Below, piece after piece: positions 15,561-32,212 of a stretch of DNA of 64,000 nt. Numbering within the stretch: position 1 is the stretch's first letter; the number at the start of each line of letters is the position of its first letter. The notes beneath the pieces were generated by a model. That model made no database searches and was not told where the DNA came from. It saw only the letters and a list, made by a program, of their open reading frames with translations. The stretch comes from Hypericibacter terrae. Lineage in GTDB: Bacteria > Pseudomonadota > Alphaproteobacteria > Dongiales > Dongiaceae. The translations under genes were made by a program, and so were the position numbers. The stretch covers positions 4,989,001-5,053,000 of the forward strand of contig NZ_CP042906.1 of assembly GCF_008728855.1 (NCBI RefSeq), given 5' to 3'.

Positions 15561-15630
15561 TCTGCGCCCCAAGGCCCGATCGAGCGCGGCCGTCGACCCG
15601 GCGAGGGACGATGGCCGTCCTCGTTCGAGC

Positions 15631-17082
15631 CTATTGAATGTCGATCGAGGGCGCTTCGCTGTCGGGCGCCGGCACGTCGATCTGGATGTTCATCTCGTCG
15701 CTGGTCGGCACATGGTGGATACGGCTCAGCACCATGTTCGGAAAGGCGATGACAAGGCTCACCATGACGATCTGGATGCAGACGAAGGGCACCGCGCCCC
15801 AATAGATCTGCCCGGTCGTCACCGGTGCGAGCTTGCGCCCGGTGATCTTGTCGATGAACGTCGAGGAAGGCGCCACGCTGCGCAGGAAGAACAGTGCGAA
15901 GCCGAAGGGCGGGTGCATGAAGGAGGTCTGCATATTGACCCCCAGCAGCACGCCGAACCAGATCAGGTCGATCCCGAGCTTGTCGGCCACGGGAGCCAGC
16001 AACGGCACCACGATGAAGGCCAGCTCGAAGAAGTCGAGGAAGAAGGCCAGGAAGAAGACCAGGATATTGACGACGATCAGGAAGCCCAGTTCGCCGCCGG
16101 GCACGCTGGTCAAGAGGCGATCGACCCAGAGATCGCCATCGACGCCGCGAAAGACCAGCGTGAAGACGGTCGAGCCGATCAGGATGAAGATCACGAAGGA
16201 GGAGAGCTTCGCGGTCGTGTCCATCGCCTGCTTCAGCAACGACCAGTTCAGCCGCCGATTTAGGAGCGCCAGGATCAGGGCGCCGGTGGCGCCCATGGCA
16301 CCGCCCTCGGTCGGGGTGGCGACGCCGATGAAGATCGTGCCCAGCACCAGGAAGATCAGGATCAGCGGCGGCATCAGCGAGACGATCACCCGGCGCAGCA
16401 GCGCCAGCCCATGCAGCGTCCGCGCCTCGCGCGGCAAGGCGGGCGCCCATTTCGGCAGGAACAGCGCCACACCCAGCACATAGAGCGCATAGAACGCGGT
16501 CAGGATCAGGCCAGGAACGATGGCGCCCTCATACATGTCGCCGACCGAGCGGCCGAGCTGGTCGGCCAGTACGATCAGGACCAGGCTGGGCGGGATGATC
16601 TGCGCCAGGGTCCCCGAGGCCGCGATCACGCCGCTGGCGAGCCGCCGGTCGTAGCCGTAGCGCAGCATGATCGGCAGCGAGATCAGCCCCATCGAGATCA
16701 CGGAGGCCGCGACCACACCCGTGGTGGCGGCCAGGAGCGCGCCCACAAAGATCGCGGCGAAAGCGAGACCGCCGCGCAAGGGGCCGAACAGCTGGCCGAT
16801 GGTGTCGAGCAGATCTTCGGCCATGCCGCTGCGTTCGAGGATCAATCCCATGAAGGTGAAGAACGGGATCGCCAGCAGCGTGTCGTTGCGCATGATGCCG
16901 AAGACGCGGTCCGGCAGGGCCTGCAGCAGCGCCGGCGTGAGCAGGCCGAGCTCGATCCCGATGAAGCCGAACAGCAATCCGTTGGCGGCCAAGGCGAAGG
17001 CGACCGGATAGCCCATCAGCAGCAGCACCACCAGCGCCAGAAACATCAGCGGCGCCAGGTTGGCGATCAGGAGCTCGGTCAT
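15631..17082 (-). CDS. dctM: TRAP transporter large permease (DctM)
   Basis: A 483-aa polytopic inner-membrane protein with about 12 hydrophobic segments, the ion-coupled permease of a TRAP transporter. Family segments are IPFFTFMGLILERSG and GVVAASVISMGLISLPIMLRYGYD. The 3' end runs to 15631 with a charged tail (residues about 455-483) longer than many DctM proteins. Its ATG overlaps the end of dctQ by four bases, so the two permease genes are one transcript. Confidence 0.9.
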   Translation of the reverse strand: MTELLIANLAPLMFLALVVLLLMGYPVAFALAANGLLFGFIGIELGLLTPALLQALPDRVFGIMRNDTLLAIPFFTFMGLILERSGMAEDLLDTIGQLFGPLRGGLAFAAIFVGALLAATTGVVAASVISMGLISLPIMLRYGYDRRLASGVIAASGTLAQIIPPSLVLIVLADQLGRSVGDMYEGAIVPGLILTAFYALYVLGVALFLPKWAPALPREARTLHGLALLRRVIVSLMPPLILIFLVLGTIFIGVATPTEGGAMGATGALILALLNRRLNWSLLKQAMDTTAKLSSFVIFILIGSTVFTLVFRGVDGDLWVDRLLTSVPGGELGFLIVVNILVFFLAFFLDFFELAFIVVPLLAPVADKLGIDLIWFGVLLGVNMQTSFMHPPFGFALFFLRSVAPSSTFIDKITGRKLAPVTTGQIYWGAVPFVCIQIVMVSLVIAFPNMVLSRIHHVPTSDEMNIQIDVPAPDSEAPSIDIQ

Positions 17083-17657
17083 GTCGGTCCGCCGGCGCGC
17101 CGGTTGCTGACGGCGGCGGCGGCATGGGCCGGGCGCTTCTCGGCGGGATCGGGAATGAGCCCCATCAGGAAGGCGATCCGCTTGATCAGTTCGGAGACGC
17201 CTTGCAGCGCCAGCAGGATGAAGCCGATCGGAATCAGGAGCTTCACCGGCCAGCGCAGCAGCCCGCCGGCATCGCCCGATATCTCATGGCGCAGATAGGA
17301 GTCCGATACCAGCGGCCAGGAGAGCCAGGCGATGATGATCGCCATCGGCAGCAGGAACAGCGCCGAGCCGACGATGTCGATCCAGGTCTGGGTTCGCTTC
17401 GACAGCCGGCCGGCGATCACATCGATGCGGACATGCTCGTTGCGCAGCAGGGTGTAGCCGGCGCAGAGCAGGAATACGGCCGAGAACAGATACCATTGGA
17501 TCTCGAGCCAGGCGTTCGAACTGGTGTCGAAAACATAGCGGACCATGGCGTTGCCGGCGCTGATCAGGACCGCGACCAGCACGCACCACGAAGCCAGCCT
17601 GCCGATATGCCCATTAAGCCAGTCGATCGCGCGGCTCAGGCCGAGCAATGCCTTCAC
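17079..17657 (-). CDS. dctQ: TRAP transporter small permease (DctQ)
   Basis: A 192-aa membrane protein with four hydrophobic helices, the small permease partner of DctM. The core motif region LEIQWYLFSAVFLLCAGYTL is the most conserved part of DctQ proteins. The C-terminus is a polar tail. Gene order dctQ then dctM, overlapping, is normal; only the binding protein is oriented against them. Confidence 0.88.
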   Translation of the reverse strand: MKALLGLSRAIDWLNGHIGRLASWCVLVAVLISAGNAMVRYVFDTSSNAWLEIQWYLFSAVFLLCAGYTLLRNEHVRIDVIAGRLSKRTQTWIDIVGSALFLLPMAIIIAWLSWPLVSDSYLRHEISGDAGGLLRWPVKLLIPIGFILLALQGVSELIKRIAFLMGLIPDPAEKRPAHAAAAVSNRRAGGPT

Positions 17658-17827
17658 GGAGTCTCCCCTGTCCCTGTCGTCGAGGACGCCTCTTGCCGGG
17701 CGCCTTCTGCCGCTTCCTCCTCTTCCTGGGAGGCGAGACGGTCATTGCCGATAATTTGCGCTCGGGTCCCGTCGCAGCTCAACCGAAAAATCCGGGGCGG
17801 GAGGGGCGGAGGCGGCGGGATCCCGCC

Positions 17828-19816
17828 TCAGTCGGAGGTTTCGACAACGGTGTCGAGCGTGTCGCGGATTCGCCTGGCGAGCTCGACCTTGCGATAGGGC
17901 TTGTGCAGCACCGTGATTCCGGACGGCAGCTGCCGTCGCGCCCGCAGATTGTCGAGCGCATAGCCGGATGTCAGCAGCACCTTCAGTCCCGGCCGGAGCT
18001 GCTGGGCGCGCTCGACGAGATCGATCCCGTTGATGCTCCCCGGCATGACGACGTCGGTGAAGAGGAGATCGACCGCGGCGCCCGAGGCCAGGCATCGCAT
18101 GGCATCGTCGCCGTCGACACTGGCAATCACCTGATATCCGAGGCCTTTGATGATGGACACGGCGTGGTCGCGCACGAAGGCATCGTCCTCCGCCACGAGC
18201 ACCGTCTCGCCGCCACCGGGCGCGAGCGTTTCCTCCGCCGCGGTCAGCGCCGCTTCGTGACTGTCATCGCCGCGGGCGACCGGAAGATAGATTCTGACCG
18301 TGGTTCCAAGCCCGACCTCGCTGTAGATGGCGACATGGCCGTTCGACTGCTTGACGAAGCCATAGACCATGCTGAGTCCCAGCCCGCTGCCCTTGCCCAC
18401 CTCCTTGGTCGTGAAGAAGGGCTCGAAGGCGCGCGCCAGCACCTCGGGCGGCATGCCGTCGCCATCGTCCGTGACCGCGACCATGATGTAATCGCCGGTC
18501 GGCACTTCGGGATGCGTGCTTCGATACTGCTCGTCCAGGCTGGCATTGGCCGTCGAGACCGTGATGCGGCCGCCGCTCGGCATGGCATCCTGGGCATTGA
18601 GGGCCAGGTTGAGGACGGCGGATTCGAGTTGCGCCGGATCGGCGAACGCAGACTTCAGCTCAGACTCGAGCGTGGTCGCGATATCGATGTCCTCCCGCAG
18701 GGTGCGGCGCAGCAGGCGGCCCATCTTGTCGACCAGCTGGTTGCAATCGATCTGGGAAGGTTTGAGTGTCTGGCGTCGGCTGAAGGCGAGCAGCCGCTGG
18801 GTCAGCTCGGCGCCGCGTTCGCCGGCGGCTATGATCGCCTCCGCGAGCTTGCGCAGGTCGGGCCGGGCCTTGAGGACGTCGCTCAGCGATTCCGCATTGC
18901 CGATGATGACGGTCAGGAGATTGTTGAAATCGTGGGCGATGCCGCCGGAGAGCTGGCCCACCGTCTCCATTTTCTGGGCCTGGAAGAGCTGCTCGCTGGT
19001 TCGCTTGCGCTCCGTCAGGTCATGGATGATGCCGACAAAGACCGGCCCGTCATCCTGCATGGCCTCACCCACGGAAAGATCCATGGGAAAGGTGGTGCCG
19101 TCCTTGCGCCGGCCGGAAACCTCGCGTCCGATGCCGATGATTTTCGGCACGCGGGTCGTCAGATAGTTCGACAGGTAACGATCATGCTCGCCACGGAAGC
19201 GCGCGGGCATGAGCATCTTCACGTTCCGGCCGATCACCTCGGCGGCGCCGTAGCCGAACAGCGCCTCGCAGGCCGGATTGAACATCATCACCTTGCCCCG
19301 GGCGTCGATGAGGATGACGCCGTCGACGGCGGTATCGACCACGGCCTTCAGTCTCTGGGCCGCCTCCCGGATCGCCTGTCCCGAGCGCTTGCGCTCGGTC
19401 AGGTCGTGGATGATGCCGACAAAGATCGATTCTCCGTCCTCCTTGGCCTCGCCGACCGACAAGTCCATCGGAAAGGTCGTGCCGTCCTTCCGCTGGCCCA
19501 CGACCTCGCGACCGATCCCGATGATCTTGGCGACGCCCGTACGATGATAGTTCGTGAGATAGCTGTCATGCTCGCCGCGAAAGGGCGCCGGCATCAGCAT
19601 CTTGACGTTCTGGCCGACGACTTCCGCGGCGGAGAATCCGAACAGCTTCTCGCAGGCTGGATTGAATTTCAGGACGGTACCGCGGGCATCGATCAGGATG
19701 ACCCCGTCGACCGCCGTATCGACGACGGCCTTCAACCGGGCTTCTTCGCGATCCACCGTCACTTCGCACCGCCCACAATCGGACAGAATCAGTTCTGGCC
19801 ACGGTCGTCGAAACAC
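17828..19816 (-). CDS. FixL-like hybrid sensor kinase with two PAS domains and a receiver
   Basis: A 662-aa protein with no membrane segment: PAS 1 (about 25-145), PAS 2 (about 155-275), phospho-acceptor domain with His295 (GGIAHDFNNLL), ATPase domain, and a C-terminal receiver (about 537-660) with Asp588 in FTDVVMP. The two PAS domains are nearly identical to each other and to FixL haem PAS. In PAS 1, His83 and Arg103 match B. japonicum FixL His200 (haem ligand) and Arg220; in PAS 2, His211 and Arg231 do so. This suggests an O2- or redox-sensing haem kinase. No FixJ-type regulator is adjacent. The true start may be a GTG a few codons in (before TVDREEARL). Confidence 0.88.
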   Translation of the reverse strand: MFRRPWPELILSDCGRCEVTVDREEARLKAVVDTAVDGVILIDARGTVLKFNPACEKLFGFSAAEVVGQNVKMLMPAPFRGEHDSYLTNYHRTGVAKIIGIGREVVGQRKDGTTFPMDLSVGEAKEDGESIFVGIIHDLTERKRSGQAIREAAQRLKAVVDTAVDGVILIDARGKVMMFNPACEALFGYGAAEVIGRNVKMLMPARFRGEHDRYLSNYLTTRVPKIIGIGREVSGRRKDGTTFPMDLSVGEAMQDDGPVFVGIIHDLTERKRTSEQLFQAQKMETVGQLSGGIAHDFNNLLTVIIGNAESLSDVLKARPDLRKLAEAIIAAGERGAELTQRLLAFSRRQTLKPSQIDCNQLVDKMGRLLRRTLREDIDIATTLESELKSAFADPAQLESAVLNLALNAQDAMPSGGRITVSTANASLDEQYRSTHPEVPTGDYIMVAVTDDGDGMPPEVLARAFEPFFTTKEVGKGSGLGLSMVYGFVKQSNGHVAIYSEVGLGTTVRIYLPVARGDDSHEAALTAAEETLAPGGGETVLVAEDDAFVRDHAVSIIKGLGYQVIASVDGDDAMRCLASGAAVDLLFTDVVMPGSINGIDLVERAQQLRPGLKVLLTSGYALDNLRARRQLPSGITVLHKPYRKVELARRIRDTLDTVVETSD

Positions 19817-19985
19817 ATCCCCGGACTGTTACTATCCGAAGTGCCGCAAGCGTCCGCAAGCCGACATTTGTTCGCCCCGGTGGAATGATGGCATCGATGG
19901 AGCCGCTCGCACCGCGCCGCCCGGTTCATGAGCCCGTGACAATCCGGTGACGGCCCGCCAGCGATTGGGCAAGGACCGCCGAGAG

Positions 19986-21041
19986 TCAGGCCGCGATGGC
20001 GATCCCGCCCCGGATGGCGCCGCGATCGACGCGGCCCCACAATACGGCATGGTCCTCGGGCAGGGCGCGGCTGTTGGGCATCGCGAACCAGAGCCGCAGC
20101 ATCGAGCGCACCCGGCCGGTGGCGGGGTCGTTCTCGAAGGCGGTGCGGGCGTGATAGATCACATGATTGTTGAGCAACTGGATCTCGCCAGGCGCCAGCA
20201 CCATCTCGAAGGCCAGCTCGGCGGCGACACTGTCGAGCAGAGCGAGCGCTTCTACCTGTTGGGGCGTCAGGCGCGGCGCCTGCGGCAGCTGCTGCGCATT
20301 TTCGATATAGGTGCGCGAATAATGGCTGGTGAGCCTGCCGTCGCGCTGACCGAAGATCGGCAGCAGGTAGATCGAGGTCTCGCCGCCCTTCTCCTCGCCA
20401 AAGCGCGTGCGCGGCACCGGCTGATAGAGAATTTCGAGCAGGTCGGGGCGGCGCTTCAGGATCTCGTTATGCACCGCGCCGGTGCTGCAGAGCTTGCTCA
20501 CGCCGCCCTCGGCGGCCTGGCCGATGCAGAACAGGCCGACCACGTCGCAACGGTCGGTATGGAAGCGCAAAGGGCCGTTGGTGAGCGTGCGCGCATAGGA
20601 GGAGAGGAAGGGCTTGCCGTTCTCATCGACGGTCACGCCGTGGCTGGCGGCCACGTCATAGCCCTCGTCCTGGATCGCCTTCATCAGCAGGCCGCTGTTG
20701 CTCTGCGAGACGATAGTGCCGAGATGATGGCCCAGCCCGAACCAGAGATGGCGCTGCGAGCGCGGATCGAGGCCGGCGAAATCGAGGCCGGTCAGCTTGG
20801 CCATGCCCGATCCGTTCTCCAGCTCCTCGCGCGCCTCGGCGCAGAGCTCGTCCAACCCCGGCACCTGGAATTGGTCGCGCGTGACCGCCGACCATTCGAT
20901 TCCCGCCTCCCGGGCGCGATCGGCGGCGGCGATCAGGGCGCGGCTGACGGCCCGATCCATCGGCCGGATCCAGCGGTTCGAAGCGGCAATCTCCGTCCCG
21001 CGCCATACGCAGGGACCGGCAATGGGGGCGATGAAGGCCAT
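19986..21041 (-). CDS. TauD/TfdA-family dioxygenase
   Basis: A 351-aa putative Fe(II)/2-oxoglutarate-dependent dioxygenase. The segment RFHTDRCDVVG gives the His-x-Asp metal pair; later NNHVIYHARTAFENDPATGR carries the distal His and the oxoglutarate-binding Arg region typical of TauD/TfdA-like proteins. I chose the ATG at 21041 (MAFIAPIAGP); the longer frame to 21317 adds 92 residues of arginine-rich, atypical sequence. Substrate unknown; not clearly taurine. It lies upstream of and divergent from the two-component pair. Confidence 0.82.
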   Translation of the reverse strand: MAFIAPIAGPCVWRGTEIAASNRWIRPMDRAVSRALIAAADRAREAGIEWSAVTRDQFQVPGLDELCAEAREELENGSGMAKLTGLDFAGLDPRSQRHLWFGLGHHLGTIVSQSNSGLLMKAIQDEGYDVAASHGVTVDENGKPFLSSYARTLTNGPLRFHTDRCDVVGLFCIGQAAEGGVSKLCSTGAVHNEILKRRPDLLEILYQPVPRTRFGEEKGGETSIYLLPIFGQRDGRLTSHYSRTYIENAQQLPQAPRLTPQQVEALALLDSVAAELAFEMVLAPGEIQLLNNHVIYHARTAFENDPATGRVRSMLRLWFAMPNSRALPEDHAVLWGRVDRGAIRGGIAIAA

Positions 21042-21477
21042 GGCGTTCGACAATCCTCGGGCAAAAGCGGCCGGTTGGAGGGCGCGCGGCGAAACTCGAA
21101 AAATGATCCCACGACGGGCGGGCGGCATCAAGCGGCCGTAAGACGGGTGGCCGGGCGGCTCCCCCATCTGTCGTAGCCGTAATCTTCCAGAAAGAGGGCC
21201 GGATCGGCTGGCACTCCCTGGACGTGCTGGCGGAACACGCCCTCGGCAGGGCAGGACGGCGTGGTAGCAGAGGCTTCGGAACCGCCCGCGTCGGCCCGCT
21301 GCCGCTGTGGGCCGCACCCGAGGCGGCCTGCAAGATCTGCAGCGCCTCGAGCCCGCTGTTCCACATCTTCAAGCTGAGCCAGGATCGGGCTCGCTTGCCG
21401 ACGCCCGGTCCGGCGTCGTAACACCCATCCCGTCTTCTCCGAGATCAACCCGGCGGGCGAGGTCGACACGATCGAGC
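21042..21477. other. 436-base intergenic region with a possible gene remnant
   Basis: No intact gene. On the plus strand a short frame (about 21224-21421) contains ACKICSASSPLFHIF, close to the CKICATASPLFD start of the zinc-ribbon gene at 25780; the 12 bases TGCAAGATCTGC are identical at 21329-21340 and 25837-25848. On the minus strand a frame ends with ADPALFLEDYGYDRWG, also protein-like. It probably holds remnants of rearranged genes plus the promoters of the flanking divergent genes. Confidence 0.35.
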
Positions 21478-22143
21478 ATGCGCGCACTTCTAATCGAAGA
21501 CGATGTGATGATCGGCCAGGGCCTGATTCGCGCGCTGGGCGATGCCGGCTGGTCGGTCGATTGGGTCCGGACCGGTGGCGATGGCGAGGAGGCGTTGCGC
21601 TCGGGCGGCCATGCGGTGGCCCTTCTCGACCTCGGACTGCCCGAGAAACTCGGCCTCGAGGTGCTGGCCTCGATCCGCAAGGCGGACATCCGCACACCCC
21701 TCATCATCGTGACGGCGCAAGACGATCTGGAGACGCGGCTGGCGGGGCTCGATCTCGGCGCCGACGATTATCTGGTGAAGCCCTTCGACAGCCGCGAACT
21801 GCTGGCCCGAATCCGCGCGGTGCTGCGCCGGCGGGTCGATCAGGCGGTCTCGTCCCTCAGCAGCGGCGAGGTGGAGCTCGACCTGACCTCCCATGCCGTG
21901 ACCTATCGCGAGACGACGCATGTCCTGCCGGCGCGGGAGTTCGCGCTGATGCAAGCCCTGGTCGAGCATCAAGGCGGCATCCTGTCCAAGGGCGTGCTCG
22001 AAGAGCGCCTCTATGGCTGGGGCGAGGAGGTGCAGAGCAATGCGGTCGAGGTGTTGATCCACTATATCCGGCGCAAGTTCGACAAGGACATCATCCGCAA
22101 CGTGCGGGGCGCCGGCTGGACCATTCCGAAGGCACCGCGATGA
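21478..22143 (+). CDS. OmpR-family response regulator (QseB/PmrA-like)
   Basis: A 221-aa response regulator. The receiver has the acidic pair E7-D8-D9 region, phospho-acceptor Asp51 (ALLDLGLP) and Lys (DDYLVKPFD); the C-terminal half is a winged helix of the OmpR class (NAVEVLIHYIRRKF...NVRGAGW). I chose the ATG at 21478; upstream in-frame starts give arginine-rich sequence. The stop overlaps the kinase start (ATGA), so the pair is translationally coupled. Likely target sites are CTAAGTCTCC direct repeats at 23477-23497. Confidence 0.93.
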   Translation: MRALLIEDDVMIGQGLIRALGDAGWSVDWVRTGGDGEEALRSGGHAVALLDLGLPEKLGLEVLASIRKADIRTPLIIVTAQDDLETRLAGLDLGADDYLVKPFDSRELLARIRAVLRRRVDQAVSSLSSGEVELDLTSHAVTYRETTHVLPAREFALMQALVEHQGGILSKGVLEERLYGWGEEVQSNAVEVLIHYIRRKFDKDIIRNVRGAGWTIPKAPR

Positions 22144-23450
22144 CCTCCTTGCGCCGTTCCGCCATGATCTGGCTGGGCGGAGTCCTGGCTGCCATTAGCC
22201 TGGTCAGTGCCGTCGGAACCTACTACTTCGTCGCGCAGGAAGCGGACGATGCGCTCGACCAGCAGCTGAAGCTGGTCGCCAGCTATGTCAGCGCCGACCC
22301 CGACGAGCCGGCCACGCTCAAGGGCCGCGCCTTTGCCGCCGATCCCGAGGACGAGTTGGTCCTGCAAGTCTGGCAGCCCGATGGCTCGCTGGCGGAGACC
22401 TCCCATCCCGAGATCGCGATTCCGAGACAAGCCGAGACCGGTTTCGCCGACCTCAGCGCGGCAGACGATTCCTGGCGGACCTTCGCCGTCATCGGAGCCG
22501 AGGGCACCATCCAGGTGTCGCAGCGCATGGTCGTGCGCCAGGAGCTGGCGGGTGCCTCGGCGCTTCGCTCCGCGATTCCGATCGGACTGCTGGTGCCGAT
22601 CGCCCTGCTGGCGCTGGGCTTCGCCATCGACCGCATCATGCGGCGGCTCGACCGGGTCGCCGGCGAGGTGGCCGGCCGCAGCCTCGAAGACCGCTCGCCG
22701 ATCCCGCTGCGGGATACGCCCGTCGAGGTCGCGCCGCTGCTGCAGGCGATGAACAGCCTGATGTCGCGCCTCAATCAGGAGATCGAGCGCCAGAAGCGGT
22801 TCGTCTCCGACGCCGCCCACGAGCTGCGCACGCCGCTGACGGCGCTGCAGATCCAGATCGGCAATCTGAAGCAGGCGGCCCAAGAGGGGCCGGCCCCGGA
22901 GCGCCTGGCCGAGCTCGAGGAGGGCGTCAGGCGTGGATCGGCGCTGGTGGCGCAGCTGTTGCGGCTGGCCCGCTACGAAGCGGGCGAGGCGAGTCTGCCG
23001 GCGGCCCGCTTCGATCTCTCCGCCTGTGTCGCGCAATGCGTGGCGCGGGCGACCTTGCTCGCGGACGGGCGACGCATCGATCTGGGTCTCGAACGGCTGG
23101 ACGCCGCCGATGCCGTAGGTTCGGCGGACGATATGGCGGTCCTGGTCGGCAATCTCCTGGACAATGCGATCCGATACACCGGCATCGGCGGCCAGGTCGA
23201 CGTCTCGCTGGCGGTCGAGGCGGATGTCGCCAGAATCGACGTGACCGATAACGGGCCGGGCGTGGATGACGCGGCCCTGCCCCGGCTGTTCGATCGGTTC
23301 TACCGGGCGCGTCCGCACGACAGCAGCGGAACCGGTCTCGGGCTCGCGATCGCGAAGCTGATCGCCGATCGCCACCATGCGCAGCTCGATCTCCGCAATC
23401 GCGGCGATGGCCGCGGCATGACCGCGAGCCTGATCGTCCCCCTGGCCTGA
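22140..23450 (+). CDS. membrane sensor histidine kinase (QseC/PmrB-like)
   Basis: A 436-aa kinase starting at the ATG that overlaps the regulator stop. TM1 is at about 8-31, a periplasmic sensor region of about 120 residues follows, then TM2 (about 145-165), HAMP, the H-box DAAHELRTP with His227, and an ATPase domain with the NLLDNAIRYT and GTGLGLAI boxes. The architecture matches QseC-type kinases. The periplasmic region holds no recognisable metal-binding motif, so the signal is unknown. Confidence 0.92.
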   Translation: MTSLRRSAMIWLGGVLAAISLVSAVGTYYFVAQEADDALDQQLKLVASYVSADPDEPATLKGRAFAADPEDELVLQVWQPDGSLAETSHPEIAIPRQAETGFADLSAADDSWRTFAVIGAEGTIQVSQRMVVRQELAGASALRSAIPIGLLVPIALLALGFAIDRIMRRLDRVAGEVAGRSLEDRSPIPLRDTPVEVAPLLQAMNSLMSRLNQEIERQKRFVSDAAHELRTPLTALQIQIGNLKQAAQEGPAPERLAELEEGVRRGSALVAQLLRLARYEAGEASLPAARFDLSACVAQCVARATLLADGRRIDLGLERLDAADAVGSADDMAVLVGNLLDNAIRYTGIGGQVDVSLAVEADVARIDVTDNGPGVDDAALPRLFDRFYRARPHDSSGTGLGLAIAKLIADRHHAQLDLRNRGDGRGMTASLIVPLA

Positions 23451-23476
23451 TGGGCGCCGGCCCAATCGGCCTCCCC

Positions 23477-23497
23477 CTAAGTCTCCTCTAAGTCTCC
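23477..23497 (+). promoter_or_regulatory. direct-repeat response-regulator box candidate
   Basis: CTAAGTCTCC occurs twice, at 23477-23486 and 23488-23497, an 11-base period that puts both half-sites on one DNA face. OmpR-class regulators bind such tandem repeats. It lies about 80 bases before the small periplasmic gene and just after the kinase gene. Confidence 0.5.
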
Positions 23498-23574
23498 CGC
23501 CGATAGCCTCGCGACCTGCCCGGCCCCCGAAGGCGGAGTCCAGGCGACCCGCTGTCAATCATGGAGACGAGGAC

Positions 23575-23832
23575 ATGTTTCAGAGACTCCTGCTCGCGGC
23601 TGCCCTGGCCGCCGCCCTGGCCTTGCCGGGCCTTGCCCATGCCGATGAGCCCGAAGCCTGCGAGCAGGTCCTCAAACGGCTCGACGATGCCCTAAAGACC
23701 GCGACCCTCTCCGACGAGCAGAAGGCGCAGGTGACAGGTTTGCGTAAGCAAGGCCTGGAAAAGTGCAAGCTCGAGAAGGATGCCGAGGCCGACGCCGATT
23801 TTCAGGCGGCGCTGAAGATTCTCGGTCAATAG
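23575..23832 (+). CDS. small periplasmic protein, hypothetical
   Basis: An 85-aa product with a signal peptide (hydrophobic about 4-19, cleavage near LAHA) and a mature helical, charged part of about 60 residues with two cysteines (C29 and C63). The mature segment LSDEQKAQVTGLRKQGLEKC is reminiscent of helical-hairpin periplasmic proteins, but I do not recognise a family. Position behind the kinase and the direct repeat suggests control by the two-component pair. Confidence 0.75.
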   Translation: MFQRLLLAAALAAALALPGLAHADEPEACEQVLKRLDDALKTATLSDEQKAQVTGLRKQGLEKCKLEKDAEADADFQAALKILGQ

Positions 23833-23854
23833 CGCCGCCCGGAGCGGGCGGCGC
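23832..23854 (+). terminator. perfect 9-bp hairpin after the periplasmic gene
   Basis: GCGCCGCCC and GGGCGGCGC pair perfectly around the GGAGC loop, beginning at the last base of the stop codon. There is no T-run, so it may be a partial terminator or an mRNA-end stabiliser before the SecDF-like gene. Confidence 0.45.
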
Positions 23855-23926
23855 CGGGCATCCCCAAAATTCCGGCGCAGCCTGCCTTTTTCCTCCTAAT
23901 TCCCCCGATTGCGGAGCCTGCCCCTC

Positions 23927-25783
23927 ATGACCCGCTCGAGAGCTCTCCTGGTCCTGGTGATCGTCCTGCTGTCCGCGATCATGGCGGCGACGTCACCCTA
24001 CTTGATTGCCCATACCAAGATCGGGCTCGAATTCAGGGGCGGCTATGAGCTGACCTTCACGGCGGATCCGCTGGCACCGGCCAGCGCCGTGACGCCCGAG
24101 GCCCTGACCAAGACGGCCGAGATCCTGTCGGAGCGGGCCAATGCGACCGGCGTCTCCGAGCCGCAGGTGAACATCCTGGGACAGAATCAGATTCGACTCA
24201 TCCTGGCCGGCGTCTCGCAGGGCGATCCCGTGCTCGCCGCGCTCCGCGATCCCGCAGGCCTTCCGGTCAAGCTCACCCAGACCTATTCGGAGACCGTGGG
24301 CGGCGTGCTTGGCGCCAGCGACCTCGCGGCAACGCTGCGCGCGGCAGGCCTGGCGGCGGCAATCCTCCTGGTCTTTCTCGTCCTGGTCTATCGCCTCCCG
24401 GGCCTCCTCGCCGGTTTCGGGCTGGCGGTCTTCGTCTGGACCCTTCTCGTCGCCTTCAATCTGCTGGGCGCCATCCTCTCGCTCTCCGCGATCGTCGCCT
24501 ATGTGCTGGGAATCGGCATCGCGGCCGGCACCTCGATCATCCAATATGAACGCATCCGCGACGAGCTGGGCTCGGCTGTCGGACTGCAGCAGGCGCTGCG
24601 CGAGGCGGGACGGCGCTCCTTGCGGACCGTCCTCGATGCGAACGCGACCGTCTTCATCTGCGCTGCCATCCTGCTGGTGGTCGGAATCGGCCCGATCCGG
24701 GGCTTCGCCCTCACCACGATGCTGGGCGTGGCGCTCAGCCTGATGGTCAATGTCTTCCTTGCGCGCTGGTTGTTGCAGCTCGCCTATGGCGACAGCGACA
24801 ACCCGGACGCGATCTTCGGCCGGCCGATCCTTGCGCGGCGCAGCGGAGACGGCGCGCGGTTCCGGTTCGACTTCATCCGCTGGGGACGCCCGATCGCCGT
24901 GGCCGCCGTGATCTTCATCACGGTCGGGCTCGTCGTCGCCGTTCGCGGACCGCTCAACTACGACATCGAGTTCAAATCCGGCACCGCGCTGGACATCCAG
25001 ATCGACAAGCCGATCACCCAGTCCGATGCGACCGACCTGATGTTCTCCGCCGGGGTCGCGCCAGCGACGGTCGCGATAGGGGGTGCGGGCAACAACATGA
25101 TCGCCGCGCGCTTCGACGATGTGCTGACGACGGCCGACGTGGATTCGATCATCGGGCGCTACAAGGAAACCTATGGCGAGAACGTGACCTTTGCCGAGAA
25201 CACCGCCGATCCTGCCGTGGCGCGCCATCTGGCGGTGCAATCGGCCGAGGTCATCCTCCTGGCCCTGGCCGGAACCTTCCTCTTCATCCTGCTGCGCTTC
25301 GGCTGGCGCTATGCGGTGGCATCGCTGGCGACGGTCTTCACCTCCGTCCTCTTCGTGATGGCCTGCTTCGCGCTCTTCTACCAGGAGATCGACATTACCT
25401 TCATCGCAGCCTTGCTCACCGTGATCGGATATTCGCTCAACGAAGCCGTCGTGGTGTTCGACCGTATCCGCGAGAATTTCGCCGAGGCCCCGCCCGGCGG
25501 CAGCCCGCGGACCATAGTCAATCGCAGCGTCGGCCAGGTCCTGCGCCGTTCCCTCTTCACCGTCTTCACGGTGATCGCCGGCGCGGTCTGTCTCTATCAA
25601 TATGGCGCGGAGCCGCTGCAGATGTTTGCGCTCGCGATCGGGCTCGGTCTCGCCTGCGGCAGCGTGGCGTCGCTCTTCATCGCGCCAAATCTGCTGCTCC
25701 TGCTGCAGCCGATGGCGACCAGCCTCGCGGATGTCGGCACGGTCGCGGAATCGCCGATCCTCCGGCAGGGGCGTTCATCGTGA
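23927..25783 (+). CDS. compact, divergent SecD-SecF fusion protein
   Basis: A 618-aa polytopic protein with SecD-like and SecF-like halves in one chain. The first half has the GLEFRGG periplasmic motif and the membrane block YERIRDELG; the second half has GYSLNEAVVVFDRIREN, the SecF signature. The periplasmic loop between TM1 and TM2 is only about 100 residues, so the usual SecD head domain is missing. The conserved Asp of the SecD TM4 motif (normally VDANVL) is Gly201 in AAGTSIIQYERI, and the SecF NDT is NEA (Glu506). It therefore looks like a paralogue rather than the housekeeping secretion factor. ATG 23927 was chosen over an upstream TTG at 23909. The stop overlaps the next gene (GTGA). 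Confidence 0.85.
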   Translation: MTRSRALLVLVIVLLSAIMAATSPYLIAHTKIGLEFRGGYELTFTADPLAPASAVTPEALTKTAEILSERANATGVSEPQVNILGQNQIRLILAGVSQGDPVLAALRDPAGLPVKLTQTYSETVGGVLGASDLAATLRAAGLAAAILLVFLVLVYRLPGLLAGFGLAVFVWTLLVAFNLLGAILSLSAIVAYVLGIGIAAGTSIIQYERIRDELGSAVGLQQALREAGRRSLRTVLDANATVFICAAILLVVGIGPIRGFALTTMLGVALSLMVNVFLARWLLQLAYGDSDNPDAIFGRPILARRSGDGARFRFDFIRWGRPIAVAAVIFITVGLVVAVRGPLNYDIEFKSGTALDIQIDKPITQSDATDLMFSAGVAPATVAIGGAGNNMIAARFDDVLTTADVDSIIGRYKETYGENVTFAENTADPAVARHLAVQSAEVILLALAGTFLFILLRFGWRYAVASLATVFTSVLFVMACFALFYQEIDITFIAALLTVIGYSLNEAVVVFDRIRENFAEAPPGGSPRTIVNRSVGQVLRRSLFTVFTVIAGAVCLYQYGAEPLQMFALAIGLGLACGSVASLFIAPNLLLLLQPMATSLADVGTVAESPILRQGRSS

Positions 25784-26622
25784 CGGCGTTCGTGACGGCA
25801 CGGCCGCTCACGCCCATTGTGGAGCGCACGACGCCCTGCAAGATCTGCGCCACCGCCAGTCCGCTGTTCGACGTGGTGGACTACCACGAGGACTGTTACG
25901 AGGATGACGGCCGTCGCATGGCCCTGTCCGGGATCCCGGTCTATTACTACCGCTGCCCCGGTTGCGGATTTCTTTTCACCCGCGCCTTCGACGATTGGGG
26001 GACGACGGATATGACGGGCCCGGTCACGACACTCGGGAATGCGGAGCCGCCGCTGGACGCAGCCGAACGGCACAACCACAATTTCGTCCCTCTCCTCAAG
26101 GAATGGTTCGGCGAAGGGCTGAGCTCGCTGCGCCTGCTCGATCTCGGCATGGACAGGCTGGCCGCCTCGCTGCGTCAAGCGGGCATTCCGGCCGACCCGT
26201 CGGAGCCGGCCCCCGGCAGCCCCGGGCCGGCATCGCCGATGGCGGCCGGACCCTATGACGTCGTCCTGGCCTTCAACATCTTCGAGCAGCTGACCGAACC
26301 CCTGGCCTTCATGAAGCGGATCGATCGGGCCATCGCGCCGGACGGGTTGCTGCTGGTCGCGACCCCGCTCAGCGACGGGGTCGATCCGGCCGCCGTCGGC
26401 ATCCGGCGCCGGCCCTTGCGCTACGTGTCGCCGCGCCGCGGGCAGTATTCGATTTTCAACGCCGCCAGCCTCGCTTTGGCGCTGGGCTCGGCCGGCTTCC
26501 GCCTCGCCGGCTTCCGGCAGGGCATCCATATCGGGCTGCGCAGGCTGCCCGCCTTCGCGGAGCGCCTGTTCGACCAGGGGGCGGGTTGGTTTACGGTCAA
26601 CTCGCTGTCAGGATCGCGGTGA
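25780..26622 (+). CDS. zinc-ribbon protein with degenerate methyltransferase domain
   Basis: A 280-aa protein starting at GTG 25780, overlapping the SecDF-like stop. The N-terminus has two Cys pairs (CKIC at 20-23 and CPGC in YYRCPGCGFLFTR), a probable zinc ribbon. The rest resembles class I SAM methyltransferases fused to such ribbons: YDVVLAFNIFEQLTEPLAFM and DGLLLVATPL are the usual later motifs. The SAM glycine motif is degenerate (LLDLGMDRLA in place of LDxGxGxG), so activity is doubtful. Coupling to the SecDF-like gene is unusual. Confidence 0.75.
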   Translation: MTAFVTARPLTPIVERTTPCKICATASPLFDVVDYHEDCYEDDGRRMALSGIPVYYYRCPGCGFLFTRAFDDWGTTDMTGPVTTLGNAEPPLDAAERHNHNFVPLLKEWFGEGLSSLRLLDLGMDRLAASLRQAGIPADPSEPAPGSPGPASPMAAGPYDVVLAFNIFEQLTEPLAFMKRIDRAIAPDGLLLVATPLSDGVDPAAVGIRRRPLRYVSPRRGQYSIFNAASLALALGSAGFRLAGFRQGIHIGLRRLPAFAERLFDQGAGWFTVNSLSGSR

Positions 26623-26629
26623 GACCGGC

Positions 26630-28354
26630 CTAGGTCGACGAGGATGCCGGAGGGGCCGGCAGCGGAGCTTCCGCCCGCAGGCTCTTTGCCGCCTCCCCTT
26701 CATCCATCATGCGGCTCGGCCTCAGGGCGCCGCCCTGGTCGAGGATCGGATAGGCGACCGACGCCAGATGCGCCGCAAGGCGCTTGAGATCGCGCAGGAT
26801 GTCGAGATGGAGTGCGCTGGTCTCGAGGCTCTCGGGCCGGCCGGCGCGCAGGCGCTGCAGATGGCTGTCCGTGGCCGCCTGCTCCAGCTCGCGGATGGCG
26901 ACCTTCTCGTTCAGGAGCCGGCGCGCCTCGCGGGGGTCGCCGGTCATGAAGACGCTGATCGCCAGCCCCAGCACCGCCATCAGCCGGTCCTGCATGGCCT
27001 CGATCTCGAGCGCGCCCTCGGCCGAGAAGCTCAGGCGGTATTTGATCTTCTTGGCGGCGATCTCGCGCAGGCTCTTGTCGAGGATGTCGCCGGCATGCTC
27101 GAGATTGATGGCGAAGGTCAGGATGTCCGAGCAGCGCCGGGCATCGGTCTCGTCGAGGCCCTCCTCGCGGCCGATCCGCGTCAGATAGAGCTTGATCGCC
27201 TTGTGCAGCCGGTCGAGCTGATCGTCGAGCTCGCCGATCTCGGCGGCCCGCTTGCGATCGTCGTGGCGCAGCGCCTCGGCCAGCGCGCGCAGCATCGCCT
27301 CCAGGATATCGGCCATGCGCAGGGTCTCGCGCGAGGCCTCGGCCAGTGCGATGGCCGGCGTGGCCAGCGCCGCCTCGTCGATATAGCGCGGGGCGCCGGG
27401 ATCGCTGACCGGGGCCGCCGGCAGCAGGCGGCGGCAGAGCCGCGCGAGCGGGCCCAGCAGGCCGATGAACAGGATCGCCAGCGCCAGATTGAACAGCAGG
27501 TGGAAATTGGCCGCGAGGCGCGCCGGCTCGGGCTCGACCGTGGCGAGCAGGGTCCCGATCCGCGGCAGCAAGGGCAGCACGAGCAGGCAGCCGGCACCGC
27601 GCACGATCAGGTTGCCCAGGGCCAGGCGACGCGCCGGGTTGCTTTTGCCGGCGCCCAGGAATTGCGGAATGACATTGCCGAGATTGGCGCCCAGCACCAG
27701 CGCCAGCGCCACGTCCGGCGTCACGATCTGTGCCGCCGCCAGGGACATGGCGAGCAGCACCACCGCCACGCTCGAATAGGCGGCCCAGGTCATGAGCGCC
27801 GCCAGCAGGATCGACAGCAGCGGATGGCCGGAGAGCACGGCGAAGAGGTCGCGCACCAGCCCCGCCTGCTCGACCGGCTGGACGGTAGCCAGGATGAGAT
27901 GCAGCGCGAGGAGAACGAGGCCGAGGCCGATGGCGACGCGGCCGAGATCGCGCACCCGCGTCTTGCCGCTTTGCTTGAAGGCGATCACCCCCGCCAGGAT
28001 CAGGATCGGCGCGACGGCCGAGACGTCGAAGGTCAGCAGCTGGACGATCAGCGTGGTGCCGATATTGGCGCCCAGCATGACCGCCAGCGCCGGCACCAGA
28101 TCGACCACGCCACTGGCGAGGAAGGACGCGGTCATCAGACCGGTGGCGGTGCTGCTCTGCAGCAGGGCGGTCACGCCGATGCCGGCCAGGAGCGCCTTCC
28201 CGCGGTTGGCGAGCCCGGCATTGAGCCAGCGGCGCAGGTCGGAGCCCAGCGCCCGCAGGATCCCGGAATGCACCATATGCAGGCCCCAAAGGAGCAGGGC
28301 CACGTTGCCGGCCAGATGCAGAATCGTAAGGCTACCCGACATGCGATCGTCCAT
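26630..28354 (-). CDS. Na/Pi cotransporter with PhoU-like C-terminal domain
   Basis: A 574-aa protein of the NptA/YjbB class. The N-terminal part is the Na+/phosphate cotransporter core with the paired GxxxTALLQSSTAT motif near residue 60 and a second QFLGAGKSN-type repeat region; about 8-9 hydrophobic segments follow to near 320. The C-terminal 230 residues are helical and PhoU-like (LEHAGDILDKSLREIAAKK). Such proteins move phosphate, often outward. It stands alone. Confidence 0.88.
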   Translation of the reverse strand: MDDRMSGSLTILHLAGNVALLLWGLHMVHSGILRALGSDLRRWLNAGLANRGKALLAGIGVTALLQSSTATGLMTASFLASGVVDLVPALAVMLGANIGTTLIVQLLTFDVSAVAPILILAGVIAFKQSGKTRVRDLGRVAIGLGLVLLALHLILATVQPVEQAGLVRDLFAVLSGHPLLSILLAALMTWAAYSSVAVVLLAMSLAAAQIVTPDVALALVLGANLGNVIPQFLGAGKSNPARRLALGNLIVRGAGCLLVLPLLPRIGTLLATVEPEPARLAANFHLLFNLALAILFIGLLGPLARLCRRLLPAAPVSDPGAPRYIDEAALATPAIALAEASRETLRMADILEAMLRALAEALRHDDRKRAAEIGELDDQLDRLHKAIKLYLTRIGREEGLDETDARRCSDILTFAINLEHAGDILDKSLREIAAKKIKYRLSFSAEGALEIEAMQDRLMAVLGLAISVFMTGDPREARRLLNEKVAIRELEQAATDSHLQRLRAGRPESLETSALHLDILRDLKRLAAHLASVAYPILDQGGALRPSRMMDEGEAAKSLRAEAPLPAPPASSST

Positions 28355-28565
28355 TCGTGGGAGGCGGATCCGCCATCGCCGCCGAGAAACGCGGCAGAAG
28401 GGAGCGGGATCCCCTGAGAAGCCACCATTCTCTACCCGGGCACAGACTCGATTGCCGTCAGAGCGCCGCTTATCATCGAATCGACGACGATCTCGCGCCC
28501 TGTCGAGGGCGCCTGGAATTTGCTACTGGAGACGACGCTCCCGCTCCCCCGAAGGATCACCGCCG

Positions 28566-29354
28566 ATGCTGACCGACAAACAGATCGACCAGGCCTCGAC
28601 CCTGCTGGTCGAGCATTGGCAGCAGGGCCGCCGCATGGCCCGCTTGCCGGAGGCGCTCCAGCCTCGGACCCGCGCCGAGGGCTATGCGATCCAGGCCCGG
28701 ATCGAGCGCCACAGCGTCAAGCCCGTCTTCGGCTGGAAGATCGCGGCCACCAGCAAAGCAGGCCAGGCCCATATCGGCGTCGACGGGCCCATGGCAGGCC
28801 GGCTCCTGGCCGAGCGCGTGCTGCCGGACGGCGGTTCCACGCCGCTGGGCGCCAATCACATGCGCGTGGCCGAGGTCGAGTTCGCCTTCCGCATGGGCCG
28901 GGACCTCGTGCCTCGCCCGGCGCCCTATTCCACCGACGAGGTCCTGGCCGCGGTCGACACGCTCCACCCCGCGATCGAGATCCCGGATTCGCGCTATGAC
29001 GATTTCGTCACCGTCGGCGCGCCCCATCTCATCGCCGACAATGCCTGCGCTCACCTCGTCGTGGTGGGGGCGCCCGCGAAGACCGACTGGCGCCGGCTCG
29101 ACCTCGCCGCGCACAAGGGCCGGGGCCGGAACGAGGGCAAGTTCGAGCGCGAGGGCAGCGGCGCGAACGTGCTGGGCGACCCGCGCATCGCGCTCGCCTG
29201 GCTCGCGAACGAGCTGCGCGGGCTCGGCCTGACGCTCTCGCGCGGCCAGACCGTGATCACCGGCACCTGCGTCAAGCCGATGGAGCTCGAGCCCGGCGAT
29301 CATATCCTGGCCGACCTGGGGAGCCTGGGCGGCCTCTCGATCCGGTTCACCTGA
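28566..29354 (+). CDS. fumarylacetoacetase-fold hydratase (2-keto-4-pentenoate hydratase-like)
   Basis: A 262-aa protein resembling MhpD-type hydratases. Seen are the metal-site region RVAEVEFAFRMGRDL (two Glu) and a C-terminal ITGTCVKPMELEPGDHI segment typical of 2-oxopent-4-enoate hydratases and related decarboxylases. I used the ATG at 28566; longer frames lie inside the upstream divergent gene. No other ring-cleavage genes are nearby, so pathway assignment is open. The YaiI gene follows after 5 bases. Confidence 0.82.
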   Translation: MLTDKQIDQASTLLVEHWQQGRRMARLPEALQPRTRAEGYAIQARIERHSVKPVFGWKIAATSKAGQAHIGVDGPMAGRLLAERVLPDGGSTPLGANHMRVAEVEFAFRMGRDLVPRPAPYSTDEVLAAVDTLHPAIEIPDSRYDDFVTVGAPHLIADNACAHLVVVGAPAKTDWRRLDLAAHKGRGRNEGKFEREGSGANVLGDPRIALAWLANELRGLGLTLSRGQTVITGTCVKPMELEPGDHILADLGSLGGLSIRFT

Positions 29355-29359
29355 CGCCG

Positions 29360-29830
29360 ATGCTCGAGATCTTCGTCGACGCCGATGCCTGTCCGGTGAA
29401 GGACGAGGTGATCCTCGTGGCCGAGCGCCACGGGCTCCCGGTCCATATGGTGGGCAACACATGGATGCGGCTTGGCGGATCGCAATCCGTCAATCGCGTG
29501 GTGGTGACCGACGGCTTCGACGCCGCCGACAACTGGATCGTCGAACATGTCGGCGCTGGCGACATCGCTATCACTGCCGACATCAGGCTCGCGGCCCGCT
29601 GCCTCGAGCGCGGCGCACGGGTGCTGGGGCCCACCGGCAAGCCCTTCACCGAGAGCGGCATCGGCATGGCGCTGGCGATGCGCGACCTCAACGAATTCCT
29701 GCGCGACAGCGGCGAGATCCGCGGCGGCGGTCCGAGCTTCGCCAAGAAGGACCGCTCGCGCTTCCTGGAGGCGCTGGAGCAGGCGATCCAAACCCTCAAG
29801 CGCGAGAAGCGGACGAGCGCCGGCTCGTAG
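29360..29830 (+). CDS. yaiI: YaiI/YqxD family protein (DUF188)
   Basis: A 156-aa member of the YaiI/YqxD family. The start IFVDADACPVKDEV and the later ITADIRLAARCLE are diagnostic; the fold is PIN-like and a nuclease role has been suggested but is not established. It follows the hydratase closely, so co-transcription is likely. The end is five bases from the convergent glyoxalase gene. Confidence 0.92.
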   Translation: MLEIFVDADACPVKDEVILVAERHGLPVHMVGNTWMRLGGSQSVNRVVVTDGFDAADNWIVEHVGAGDIAITADIRLAARCLERGARVLGPTGKPFTESGIGMALAMRDLNEFLRDSGEIRGGGPSFAKKDRSRFLEALEQAIQTLKREKRTSAGS

Positions 29831-29835
29831 CCCCG

Positions 29836-30198
29836 CTATTTGAGACAGACCGCCTCGATATTGTTGCCGTCGGGGTCGATCAGGAAGGCCGCGTAATAGG
29901 TCGGGCTGTAGTCGGGACGCGGCCCCGGCTTGCCATTGTCGCTTCCGCCGGCCTTCATCCCTTCCTTGTAGAAGCGATCGACCGCCGCGTGATCGGCTGC
30001 CGTAAAGGCGACATGCGTGCCGCCGCTCTTTGCGCCGTCGGCCCGCTGCAGCCACAAGGCGGGCGCCTTGGGCGGCCCGAAGCCGGCACCCGACTCATCT
30101 TGCGAGACGAGTCCGTATCCCAGCGGCGTCAGCGCCGCCTTGTAGAAACGGACGCTGGCTGCGACGTCCTTCACCTTCAAGCCGACATGGTCATACAT
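29836..30198 (-). CDS. VOC/glyoxalase-family protein
   Basis: A 120-aa single-domain vicinal-oxygen-chelate protein (MYDHVGLKVKDVAASVRFY...). The start at 30198 is preceded by GGAGG five bases upstream, which favours it over 30225. The C-terminal IDPDGNNIEAVC is the usual VOC metal region end. The AraC-type gene ends 23 bases upstream in the same direction, so the two are probably one operon. Substrate unknown; single-domain VOC proteins include antibiotic-resistance and isomerase activities. Confidence 0.85.
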   Translation of the reverse strand: MYDHVGLKVKDVAASVRFYKAALTPLGYGLVSQDESGAGFGPPKAPALWLQRADGAKSGGTHVAFTAADHAAVDRFYKEGMKAGGSDNGKPGPRPDYSPTYYAAFLIDPDGNNIEAVCLK

Positions 30199-30221
30199 GA
30201 TGTCCTCCATCGATGGATGGA

Positions 30222-31073
30222 TCATCCTAGAAGGCCCGCCGTCATGCGTTCTTGGAGAAACTTGCGATCGCCCTTTGCCGCCTTCCGGAACCGGCGCGGC
30301 GAGACGCCGGCCGCGCGATGGAAGCTGCGCACGAAGTTCGAAAGGTCGGCGAACCCGACCTCATAGGCGATCTCGGTGATCGAGCGCGTGTCGTCCACCA
30401 GCAGCCTGGCGGCGCGGCGCAGTCGCGACCGGACCAGATATTGATGCGGCGTCACGCCGAGCACGCGGCGGAACAGCCGCAGGAAATGGAACGCGCTCAA
30501 GCCTGCTTCGGCCGCCGCATCGTCGAGGTCGATGGCCTCGTGCGCATGGGCCTCGATCCAGAGCGCCGCCTCCACCGCGCGACGACGGTCGCGAGCGTTG
30601 GCCTGCGGGGTCGCAGGACTTTGCCCGGAGACGATCGCGGCCAGCCGACCCGCCAGCGCCATGCCCGCTTCGGCGAGGCCCAGATCGCTGCGGCCCTCGG
30701 CGGTCGCCTGCGCCAGCTCGCCCAGCAGCATCAGCTCGGGGAGCGGCGGCACGGCCCCGACATGCCAGAGCTCGGCATGGGCGGGCGCCATCGCCTCGAC
30801 CAGCGCCGGCGCCAGACCGAAGGCGAGGCATTCGTCGCCATGCACATGGTCATGGGTGCAGACATATTCCACGCCGGGCTTGCCGACCAGGATCGAGCCC
30901 GCGACCAGCTCATGCGAGCGGCCGCGCGCGCGATAGCCGAAGCTGCCTTTGCGCAAGTAAGCGATGCTGTAGCCGCCATGGCATTCGGCGAAAGGCCGAT
31001 CGCCCGGCCCCGCCGTGCAGCGATAGTCGGTGGCCGCGATCGTGGGGCCCTGGAACAGGGTTTTGATCAGCAT
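30222..31073 (-). CDS. AraC-family transcriptional regulator
   Basis: A 283-aa regulator with an N-terminal cupin-like sensing half and a C-terminal double helix-turn-helix (about 180-275; [19 protein letters not shown] and [20 protein letters not shown]). It lies upstream of and co-directional with the glyoxalase gene, which it may control. The N-terminal residues give no ligand. Confidence 0.9.
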
Positions 31074-31085
31074 GGCGAAGGAATT

Positions 31086-31667
31086 CTAGCGCCGCCGCAC
31101 GGGCCGCGCCATCGCCGGTAGGCTGTCGAAGAGGGTGGGCGTGCTGCCCAGTTGCGCGCCTTCGATGGTGAGCATGCGCAGCTTGGTCTCGACCCCGCCA
31201 TTGGCGGAGAAACCGCCGACCTTGCCGTTGGCGCCCATCACCCGATGGCAGGGCACGATAATGGCAAAGGGATTCTGGCCGAGCGCCTGCCCGACATCGC
31301 GCGCCAGCAAGCGGTCGCCGAGCTCGGTCGCGATCTCGCCATAGCTGCGGGTCCGGCCGGGCGGAATCCGGCGCGCGACCTCGTAGACCTGGCGGTTGAA
31401 ATCCGGCACGGCCCTCATGTCGAGCGCGATCCCGGCGAGGTCGTTCTTCTCACCCTCGAGCAGCGCCACGATCGCCGCGATCGCCTGAAGGATCTCGGGC
31501 GGGGCTGCCGCTGCTTCCTCGAGACCGGGATGGCGACGGCGGAGCCGGGCGCGGGTGGCGGCATCGTTCGCTTCGGGCAGCTGCAACGCCACCACGCCCT
31601 GCGCGCTCCAGGCGATGGCGCAGCGGCCGATGGCCGTGTCGAACAGGATATAGCTCTGCCTTGTCAT
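31086..31667 (-). CDS. ogt: methylated-DNA-protein-cysteine methyltransferase
   Basis: A 193-aa O6-alkylguanine-DNA alkyltransferase. The acceptor-cysteine motif IVPCHRVMGANG is intact near residue 135, preceded by the helix-turn-helix IPPGRTRSYGEIA. It removes alkyl groups from guanine O6 in one step. I chose the ATG at 31667; the longer frame to 31808 adds arginine-rich residues. It ends 12 bases before the AraC gene start, so it may share its transcript. Confidence 0.92.
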   Translation of the reverse strand: MTRQSYILFDTAIGRCAIAWSAQGVVALQLPEANDAATRARLRRRHPGLEEAAAAPPEILQAIAAIVALLEGEKNDLAGIALDMRAVPDFNRQVYEVARRIPPGRTRSYGEIATELGDRLLARDVGQALGQNPFAIIVPCHRVMGANGKVGGFSANGGVETKLRMLTIEGAQLGSTPTLFDSLPAMARPVRRR

Positions 31668-31717
31668 GATGGCCGTCAGTCTAGCGCCGGCGCCTTGTCC
31701 GGACTTGCCGAATCTTG

Positions 31718-32212
31718 CTAATCGGCCGCGGGCAACCGCAGGGCCAGGACGAAAGCCGCGAAGGCCGCAAGCGCCGCCACGGTGCGGACATGGTTCCAAT
31801 TCGTCCATTCGGCGACATAGCGCAGCCAGAGCGACGCGGCCTCGCCGCCGTTCGGATCGAGGCCGGCCAGCGCATCGTTGCGCGGCACGTTGAAGACCAT
31901 CGTCACCAGCACCGTGCCGACCAGATAGAAGAGCCCGCCGCCCAGCAGATAGACCGCCCGCGGCTCGCCCCAGCCCGCGATCGCGGCCACCCCGAGCGCC
32001 AGGCCGGCGAGGGCCGTGCCGAACATCGTGCCCATGAAGAGGGGATTGATCACGGCGACATTGATCGACTGCATCGCGGCGATCCCCTGCGCCGCCGGCA
32101 GCCTTGCCAGCGCCGTCATGACGAAGGTCGAGAAGGCGAAGAAGGTGCCGGCGACGAGGCCGGACCCGATCGCCGAGAGGAAGATCAGGCCCGTGATCAG
32201 CCGGTCGGTCAT
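31718..32212 (-). CDS. DUF1772 membrane protein
   Basis: A 164-aa membrane protein with four hydrophobic segments, matching DUF1772 (anthrone-oxygenase-like; characteristic VAGTFFAFSTFVM and FNVPRNDAL). I used the ATG at 32212 since the frame further upstream crosses the operator. It is divergent from a TetR gene with a nested palindrome between them, so it is probably the repressed target. Confidence 0.85.
   Translation of the reverse strand: MTDRLITGLIFLSAIGSGLVAGTFFAFSTFVMTALARLPAAQGIAAMQSINVAVINPLFMGTMFGTALAGLALGVAAIAGWGEPRAVYLLGGGLFYLVGTVLVTMVFNVPRNDALAGLDPNGGEAASLWLRYVAEWTNWNHVRTVAALAAFAAFVLALRLPAAD

Follow-up and report, generated by a model that had tools for sequence, protein, structure and literature searches.

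A headless SecDF-like paralogue without the central proton-wire aspartate in an accessory cassette of Hypericibacter terrae

In addition to intact canonical secD and secF genes, Hypericibacter terrae carries a fused SecDF-like gene whose product has lost both the periplasmic P1 head and the aspartate of SecD transmembrane helix 4 (TM4). The gene lies in a stretch of 64,000 nucleotides, hereafter called the window (assembly GCF_008728855.1, contig NZ_CP042906.1, positions 4,989,001 to 5,053,000, forward strand), and positions below are those of the window. We infer, with a probability of roughly 0.45, that it encodes a transferred SecDF variant that is not proton-coupled and works, when induced, as a passive factor associated with Sec. 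The gene and the sites discussed below are:

23927..25783, + strand: fused SecDF-like paralogue of 618 aa (from the ATG at 23927 to a stop that ends at 25783; TTG at 23909 is an alternative in-frame start)
24041..24298, + strand: P1 base only, beta-alpha-beta-beta-alpha-beta, residues 39-124 (AlphaFold2 model)
24212..24259, + strand: site of the missing P1 head, a 16-aa spacer, residues about 96-111 (116-161 aa in 62 other rows)
24527..24529, + strand: Gly201 codon, SecD TM4, opposite residue 340 of Thermus thermophilus SecDF (Asp in 62/62 other SecD rows)
24980..25207, + strand: SecF P4 domain, beta-alpha-beta-beta-alpha-beta, residues 352-427 (AlphaFold2 model)
25343..25345, + strand: Ser473 codon, SecF transmembrane site (Asp in 59/63 other SecF rows)
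25442..25444, + strand: Glu506 codon, in NEA, at the position of residue 637 of T. thermophilus SecDF (phmmer and SecF alignment)
25547..25549, + strand: Arg541 codon, the retained proton-wire Arg, at the position of residue 671 of T. thermophilus SecDF (SecF alignment)

The 618-codon open frame reads as a fused SecD- and SecF-like product, the compact fusion that the earlier note had described. Pfam matched SecD_SecF_C (PF02355) twice, and the protein passed the NCBIfam SecF model TIGR00966 (255.5 bits; cutoff 160) and failed the SecD model TIGR01129 (206.1 bits; cutoff 244.4). Modelling the fold, a check proposed in that note, returned SecDF with a P1 base and no head: AlphaFold2, run on an 11-row alignment (mean pLDDT 79.1, pTM 0.74), predicted TM helices of the SecDF type, the P1 elements E39-47, H57-73, E77-84, E88-94, H101-106 and E115-124, and the P4 elements E352-358, H365-374, E381-385, E391-396, H402-416 and E421-427. 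Without its head, the predicted P1 is the base alone and has the same order of elements as P4. SecDF of T. thermophilus (3aqp) was the top fold match with Foldseek (TM-score 0.78 by query length) as well as with VIA-align (Z 50.1, 567 residues, rmsd 4.5), and RND pumps ranked next. The input alignment contained canonical rows, so the prediction cannot count as independent evidence of the SecDF fold. Pfam, AlphaFold2 and the 3aqp match together give the SecDF hallmark of two pseudo-repeats that contain SecD_SecF_C domains and make up twelve TM helices. As predicted, the protein is a pared-down, pseudo-symmetric form of SecDF, with two six-helix halves that each carry one small periplasmic domain.

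For the individual residues we used an alignment of 64 SecD and 66 SecF rows from fetched loci (62 and 63 of them other than headless), which were picked by similarity to the query and are not a random sample of SecDF. Two headless relatives were included: L009, from a Rhodospirillales metagenome-assembled genome, and L010, a partial relative ending at a contig edge, of which only the SecF half was compared. In a phmmer alignment with T. thermophilus SecDF (3aqp), residues 201, 506 and 541 counted from the ATG (207, 512 and 547 of P0001) stood opposite residues 340, 637 and 671, which we take to be the residues published as coupling sites in T. thermophilus. The TM4 site is Asp in all 62 other SecD rows and Gly in the window protein and L009 alone. 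The same two proteins have the 16-aa P1 spacer. At the second site of the SecF NDT motif, the window protein and L009 have Glu and L010 has Gly (others: Asp 60, Asn 2, Ala 1; n=63). These observations bear out the earlier note, which had named Gly201, the change from NDT to NEA and the absent head. A further loss, missing from it, was found at SecF residue 473, which is Ser, Ser and Ala in the window protein, L009 and L010 (others: Asp 59, Asn 3, Val 1; n=63).

As described in the accessible text of PMC8669966, SecD D519 and SecF R247, the Escherichia coli counterparts of the sites at Gly201 and Arg541, are located centrally in the proton channel, mutation of either one locks the protein in the I form, and SecD D519N strongly inhibits the maturation of outer-membrane proteins. 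The substrate-binding pocket of SecDF is placed in the P1 head in the accessible text of PMC11470409. With both the central proton-wire Asp and the P1 head gone, proton-driven pulling of the type known from these sources is unlikely for the window protein.

Canonical secD (525 aa, GMAIDANVLI) and secF (319 aa, SVNDTVV) are both intact at 2.91 Mb of the single contig (5.89 Mb), 2.1 Mb from the window gene at 5.01 Mb, which is thus a paralogue and not the sole copy; the lack of canonical genes that would have refuted the earlier note did not arise. The earlier note had supposed a dedicated paralogue, perhaps for one exported partner; the paralogy held, but nothing that we found ties the gene to a partner. 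The two further genomes that hold a headless-type gene gave canonical-type SecDF matches as well: one has its SecD and SecF matches apart, on different contigs (L043, L042), and the other has a fused match (L040).

The window protein, L009 and L010 grouped together with full support (FastTree 1.0; IQ-TREE UFBoot 100). This trio was placed beside Paenibacillus SecDF, then three Bacilli-type sequences (FastTree 0.97; IQ-TREE LG+G4, UFBoot 100), and a 34-row mixture-model tree agreed (SH-aLRT 97). An AU test rejected a grouping of the headless proteins with alphaproteobacterial SecDF1 and SecDF2 (p 1.2e-43), this group having been named after the tree had been inspected. The trees and the AU test reject the idea that the gene arose as a duplicate of SecDF2 or of the SecDF native to the host. 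Judged from these sequences, the headless gene is not derived from the host's own SecDF and is of Bacillota-type ancestry. The trees covered Bacillota, Actinomycetota and Pseudomonadota, and the Bacillota rows were picked by query similarity (row L030, genome G012, is from the window's own family and not from Bacillota); with this sampling and the long headless stem, the exact donor is not fixed. This Bacillota (Paenibacillus) ancestry, as opposed to descent from the host's SecDF, was absent from the picture drawn in the earlier note.

By the searches made, the headless gene is very sporadic and found in few alphaproteobacteria. With the window protein as query at E 1e-75, a threshold below which a diverged headless copy could fall, headless matches occurred in 1/17 genomes of the window's family, 2/385 genomes of its class (the second, G355, corresponds in size and coordinates to the genome of L010), 1/398 genomes drawn from the phylum and 1/82 genomes of the order of L009; these genome sets overlap. 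Scanning a collection of 84,980 species genomes with exact peptides yielded 59 pattern matches, with seven relatives confirmed, namely two of the headless type (L009 and L010), four from Niameybacter/Epulopiscium, of which the three aligned are canonical SecDF (L014 is outside the alignment), and one short mycobacterial match. Headless copies were also sought in Bacilli: of 299 genomes, 12 cleared the threshold of E 1e-84, and in each of these the best frame has GMAVDAN (these loci are additional to the 64 and 66 rows above). One IMG/VR scan for viral relatives gave 39 pattern matches and no confirmed one; 20 phage records matched, all with less than 60% identity and, among the matches listed, mostly without annotation. 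In titles and abstract openings of literature on SecDF paralogues, protons, P1 and horizontal transfer, from which subscription papers were mostly absent, no headless or Asp-less SecDF was mentioned.

The gene is part of an accessory cassette with the following members:

21046..26688, + strand: accessory block, missing from the syntenic site in G001, a genome of the same genus that has 366 bp in its place
21478..22143, + strand: OmpR-family response regulator, PmrA/QseB-like, below equivalog cutoffs (profile matches)
22140..23450, + strand: sensor histidine kinase, QseC-like, overlapping the regulator by 4 bases
23575..23832, + strand: 85-aa small protein with a signal-peptide-like N-terminus (ORF without Pfam or NCBIfam family match)
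25780..26622, + strand: CxxC...CxxC and SAM methyltransferase (Methyltransf_23), overlapping the SecDF-like stop by 4 bases

G001 shares the flanking blocks, with TauD-like and Na/Pi-cotransporter genes, at 83% and 81% DNA identity. Between them lie 5,643 bp in the window and 366 bp in G001; in the latter, no gene was recognised and one of six frames is open throughout. With two genomes compared, the window genome may have gained the block or G001 may have lost it. Marks of a mobile element were sought: no direct repeat of at least 9 bases was found between the compared block-edge stretches, and no tRNA gene at window positions 15000-32000. The Na/Pi cotransporter-PhoU gene at 26630-28354 has a second similar copy at G000:C1:4119489-4121085.

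The cassette raises an alternative that we consider improbable but deserving of weight: the protein may have left the Sec pathway, and its RND fold may now serve as a small transporter or, in the membrane, as co-sensor to the linked histidine kinase. Two-component genes adjoin the SecDF-like gene both in the window, where they are co-directional, and in L009, where they are divergent and of the CopR/CusR type; the methyltransferase gene overlaps the stop codon, and RND pumps come next among the fold matches. However, the two systems belong to different subfamilies with 32% and 28% identity and are not orthologous, so that the linkage may be coincidental. Moreover, the sequence is clearly that of a SecDF and not of another RND protein, and P4 and the P1 base have the SecDF form.

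Several charged residues have been kept. SecF Arg541, the proton-wire Arg, is Arg in 66/66 rows, window included, SecD TM5 Asp237 is present in the window protein, in L009 and in 62/62 other rows, and position 506 is acidic in the window protein and L009. A residual ion path is thus possible, which counts against a purely passive reading. It is nevertheless unlikely, in our view, that the protein is still an ion-driven SecDF in which Glu506, Arg541 and Asp237 form a displaced wire that may serve another cation, and the stroke comes from the small pair of P1 base and P4. PMC6028853 mentions, in its accessible text, a SecDF paralogue for which the use of Na+ has been suggested, but L010 has Gly at 506, the Asp at 473 is absent in all three proteins, and without the head nothing is known that would grip the substrate. 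A scan for gained charges listed no acid gained in the TM helices, and a compensating TM acid was therefore rejected; the gained charge nearest the wire is Arg540, beside Arg541. In three full-length Bacillota SecDF proteins (L060, L068 and L077), the SecF coupling Asp is naturally replaced (NAT, NNT and NNT) and the SecD Asp is kept, which suggests that SecDF can do without the SecF acid more readily than without the SecD acid. This natural variation also weakens the change at 506 as an argument for a passive protein.

The 85-aa protein, which is helical with two Cys, is the sole candidate partner of the SecDF-like protein; no such neighbour is found beside the L009 gene. Relatives occurred in 4/60 other genomes, in loci (about 3.2 kb read) where no match to another cassette protein was found, and in three of the four a nearby ORF is presumably a DNA methyltransferase, judging from its sequence. 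It is very improbable that this protein acts as a secretion monitor of the VemP/ApdP kind, controlling the SecDF-like gene through arrest of its own translation. The position of the ORF, its signal-peptide-like start and its length fit the screening criteria in the accessible text of PMC10987492, and a histidine kinase, response regulator, secreted protein and secDF are listed together for Streptomyces coelicolor in that of PMC6629963. Yet the C-terminus (...ALKILGQ) has no RAPP-like motif, the relatives have no adjacent SecDF, and folding of the mRNA junction was little or no better than that of shuffled sequences (z -1.40, -0.45 and +0.85). On these grounds arrest-peptide control was rejected. 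Just downstream of the headless gene of L010, at 943-2112, lies a 390-aa protein that is outer-membrane-like to the eye and had no Pfam or NCBIfam match.

The headless gene, on these comparisons, is maintained and diverges no faster than canonical SecDF. Among the three genomes, identities were 55-62% for headless SecF (canonical SecF of the same genomes: 46-61%) and 52% for headless SecD (canonical SecD: 53-55%), and the window and L009 genes differed at 211, 166 and 362 first, second and third codon positions over 602 codons. A decaying nonfunctional copy, which the loss of several invariant residues might suggest, is hardly credible given the open frame, this divergence, the third-position bias and the occurrence in three genomes.

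Taken together, we favour the transferred, uncoupled factor. On this reading, the gene came from a Bacillota-type SecDF and occurs in a few alphaproteobacteria, in the window as part of a cassette that brings a two-component system along. The protein has lost the parts of a puller, namely the substrate-binding P1 head, the TM4 Asp at the wire centre and the SecF TM Asp at 473, and in L010 the second SecF acid as well. The remaining passive membrane factor may dock on SecYEG/YidC or on an exported client without proton coupling, be switched on by the neighbouring two-component system, and leave proton-driven work to canonical SecD and SecF. The fuller proposal of a naturally proton-uncoupled SecDF scaffold, without head or central wire and under dedicated two-component control, is offered tentatively. 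The linkage may be coincidental, and just two full-length members (window and L009) are known. If the protein is proton-uncoupled, selection has kept a headless, wire-less scaffold, and the bare P1 base, P4 and TM part must do some SecDF work independently of the proton-motive force. The protein bears on the question of what SecDF does beyond proton-driven pulling: a natural, conserved gene combines loss of the proton-wire Asp with loss of the P1 head, and its product could help to tell a scaffold role of SecDF apart from the motor role and inform on reuse of the RND scaffold without ion coupling.

Among known systems, the S. coelicolor module of SecDF (SCO6160), secreted protein (SCO6161), response regulator (SCO6162) and histidine kinase (SCO6163), as given in the accessible text of PMC6629963, resembles the window cassette in having these genes side by side, a likeness by kind of gene. 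The fused SecDF of Streptomyces clavuligerus (L093), aligned instead of SCO6160, has the TM4 Asp and a 161-aa spacer, unlike the window protein. Alphaproteobacterial SecDF2/ApdP (L090, L092 and L094) is alike in being a second SecDF with a small secreted protein encoded upstream. In these three loci, the upstream frames carry RAPP near the C-terminus, as expected of ApdP arrest peptides; this motif is absent from the 85-aa ORF of the window. SecDF2 keeps the TM4 Asp and a 139-152-aa spacer and belongs to the alphaproteobacterial clade, outside which the window protein falls by the AU test. The nearest relatives in the trees, Paenibacillus SecD/SecF (L036; 40% and 33% identity to the window protein, respectively) and other Bacilli SecDF, keep the full head and the TM4 Asp, both of which the window protein lacks. 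The closest systems for comparison are canonical SecDF of T. thermophilus (3AQP/5YHF) and Deinococcus (5XAN/5XAP) and SecD and SecF of E. coli. With these, the window protein shares the 12-TM RND fold, the P1 base, P4, the SecF Arg and the TM5 Asp; it differs from them in the absence of the TM4 Asp, the P1 head and the SecF Asp at 473, and in the replacement of the SecF coupling Asp by Glu (Gly in L010).
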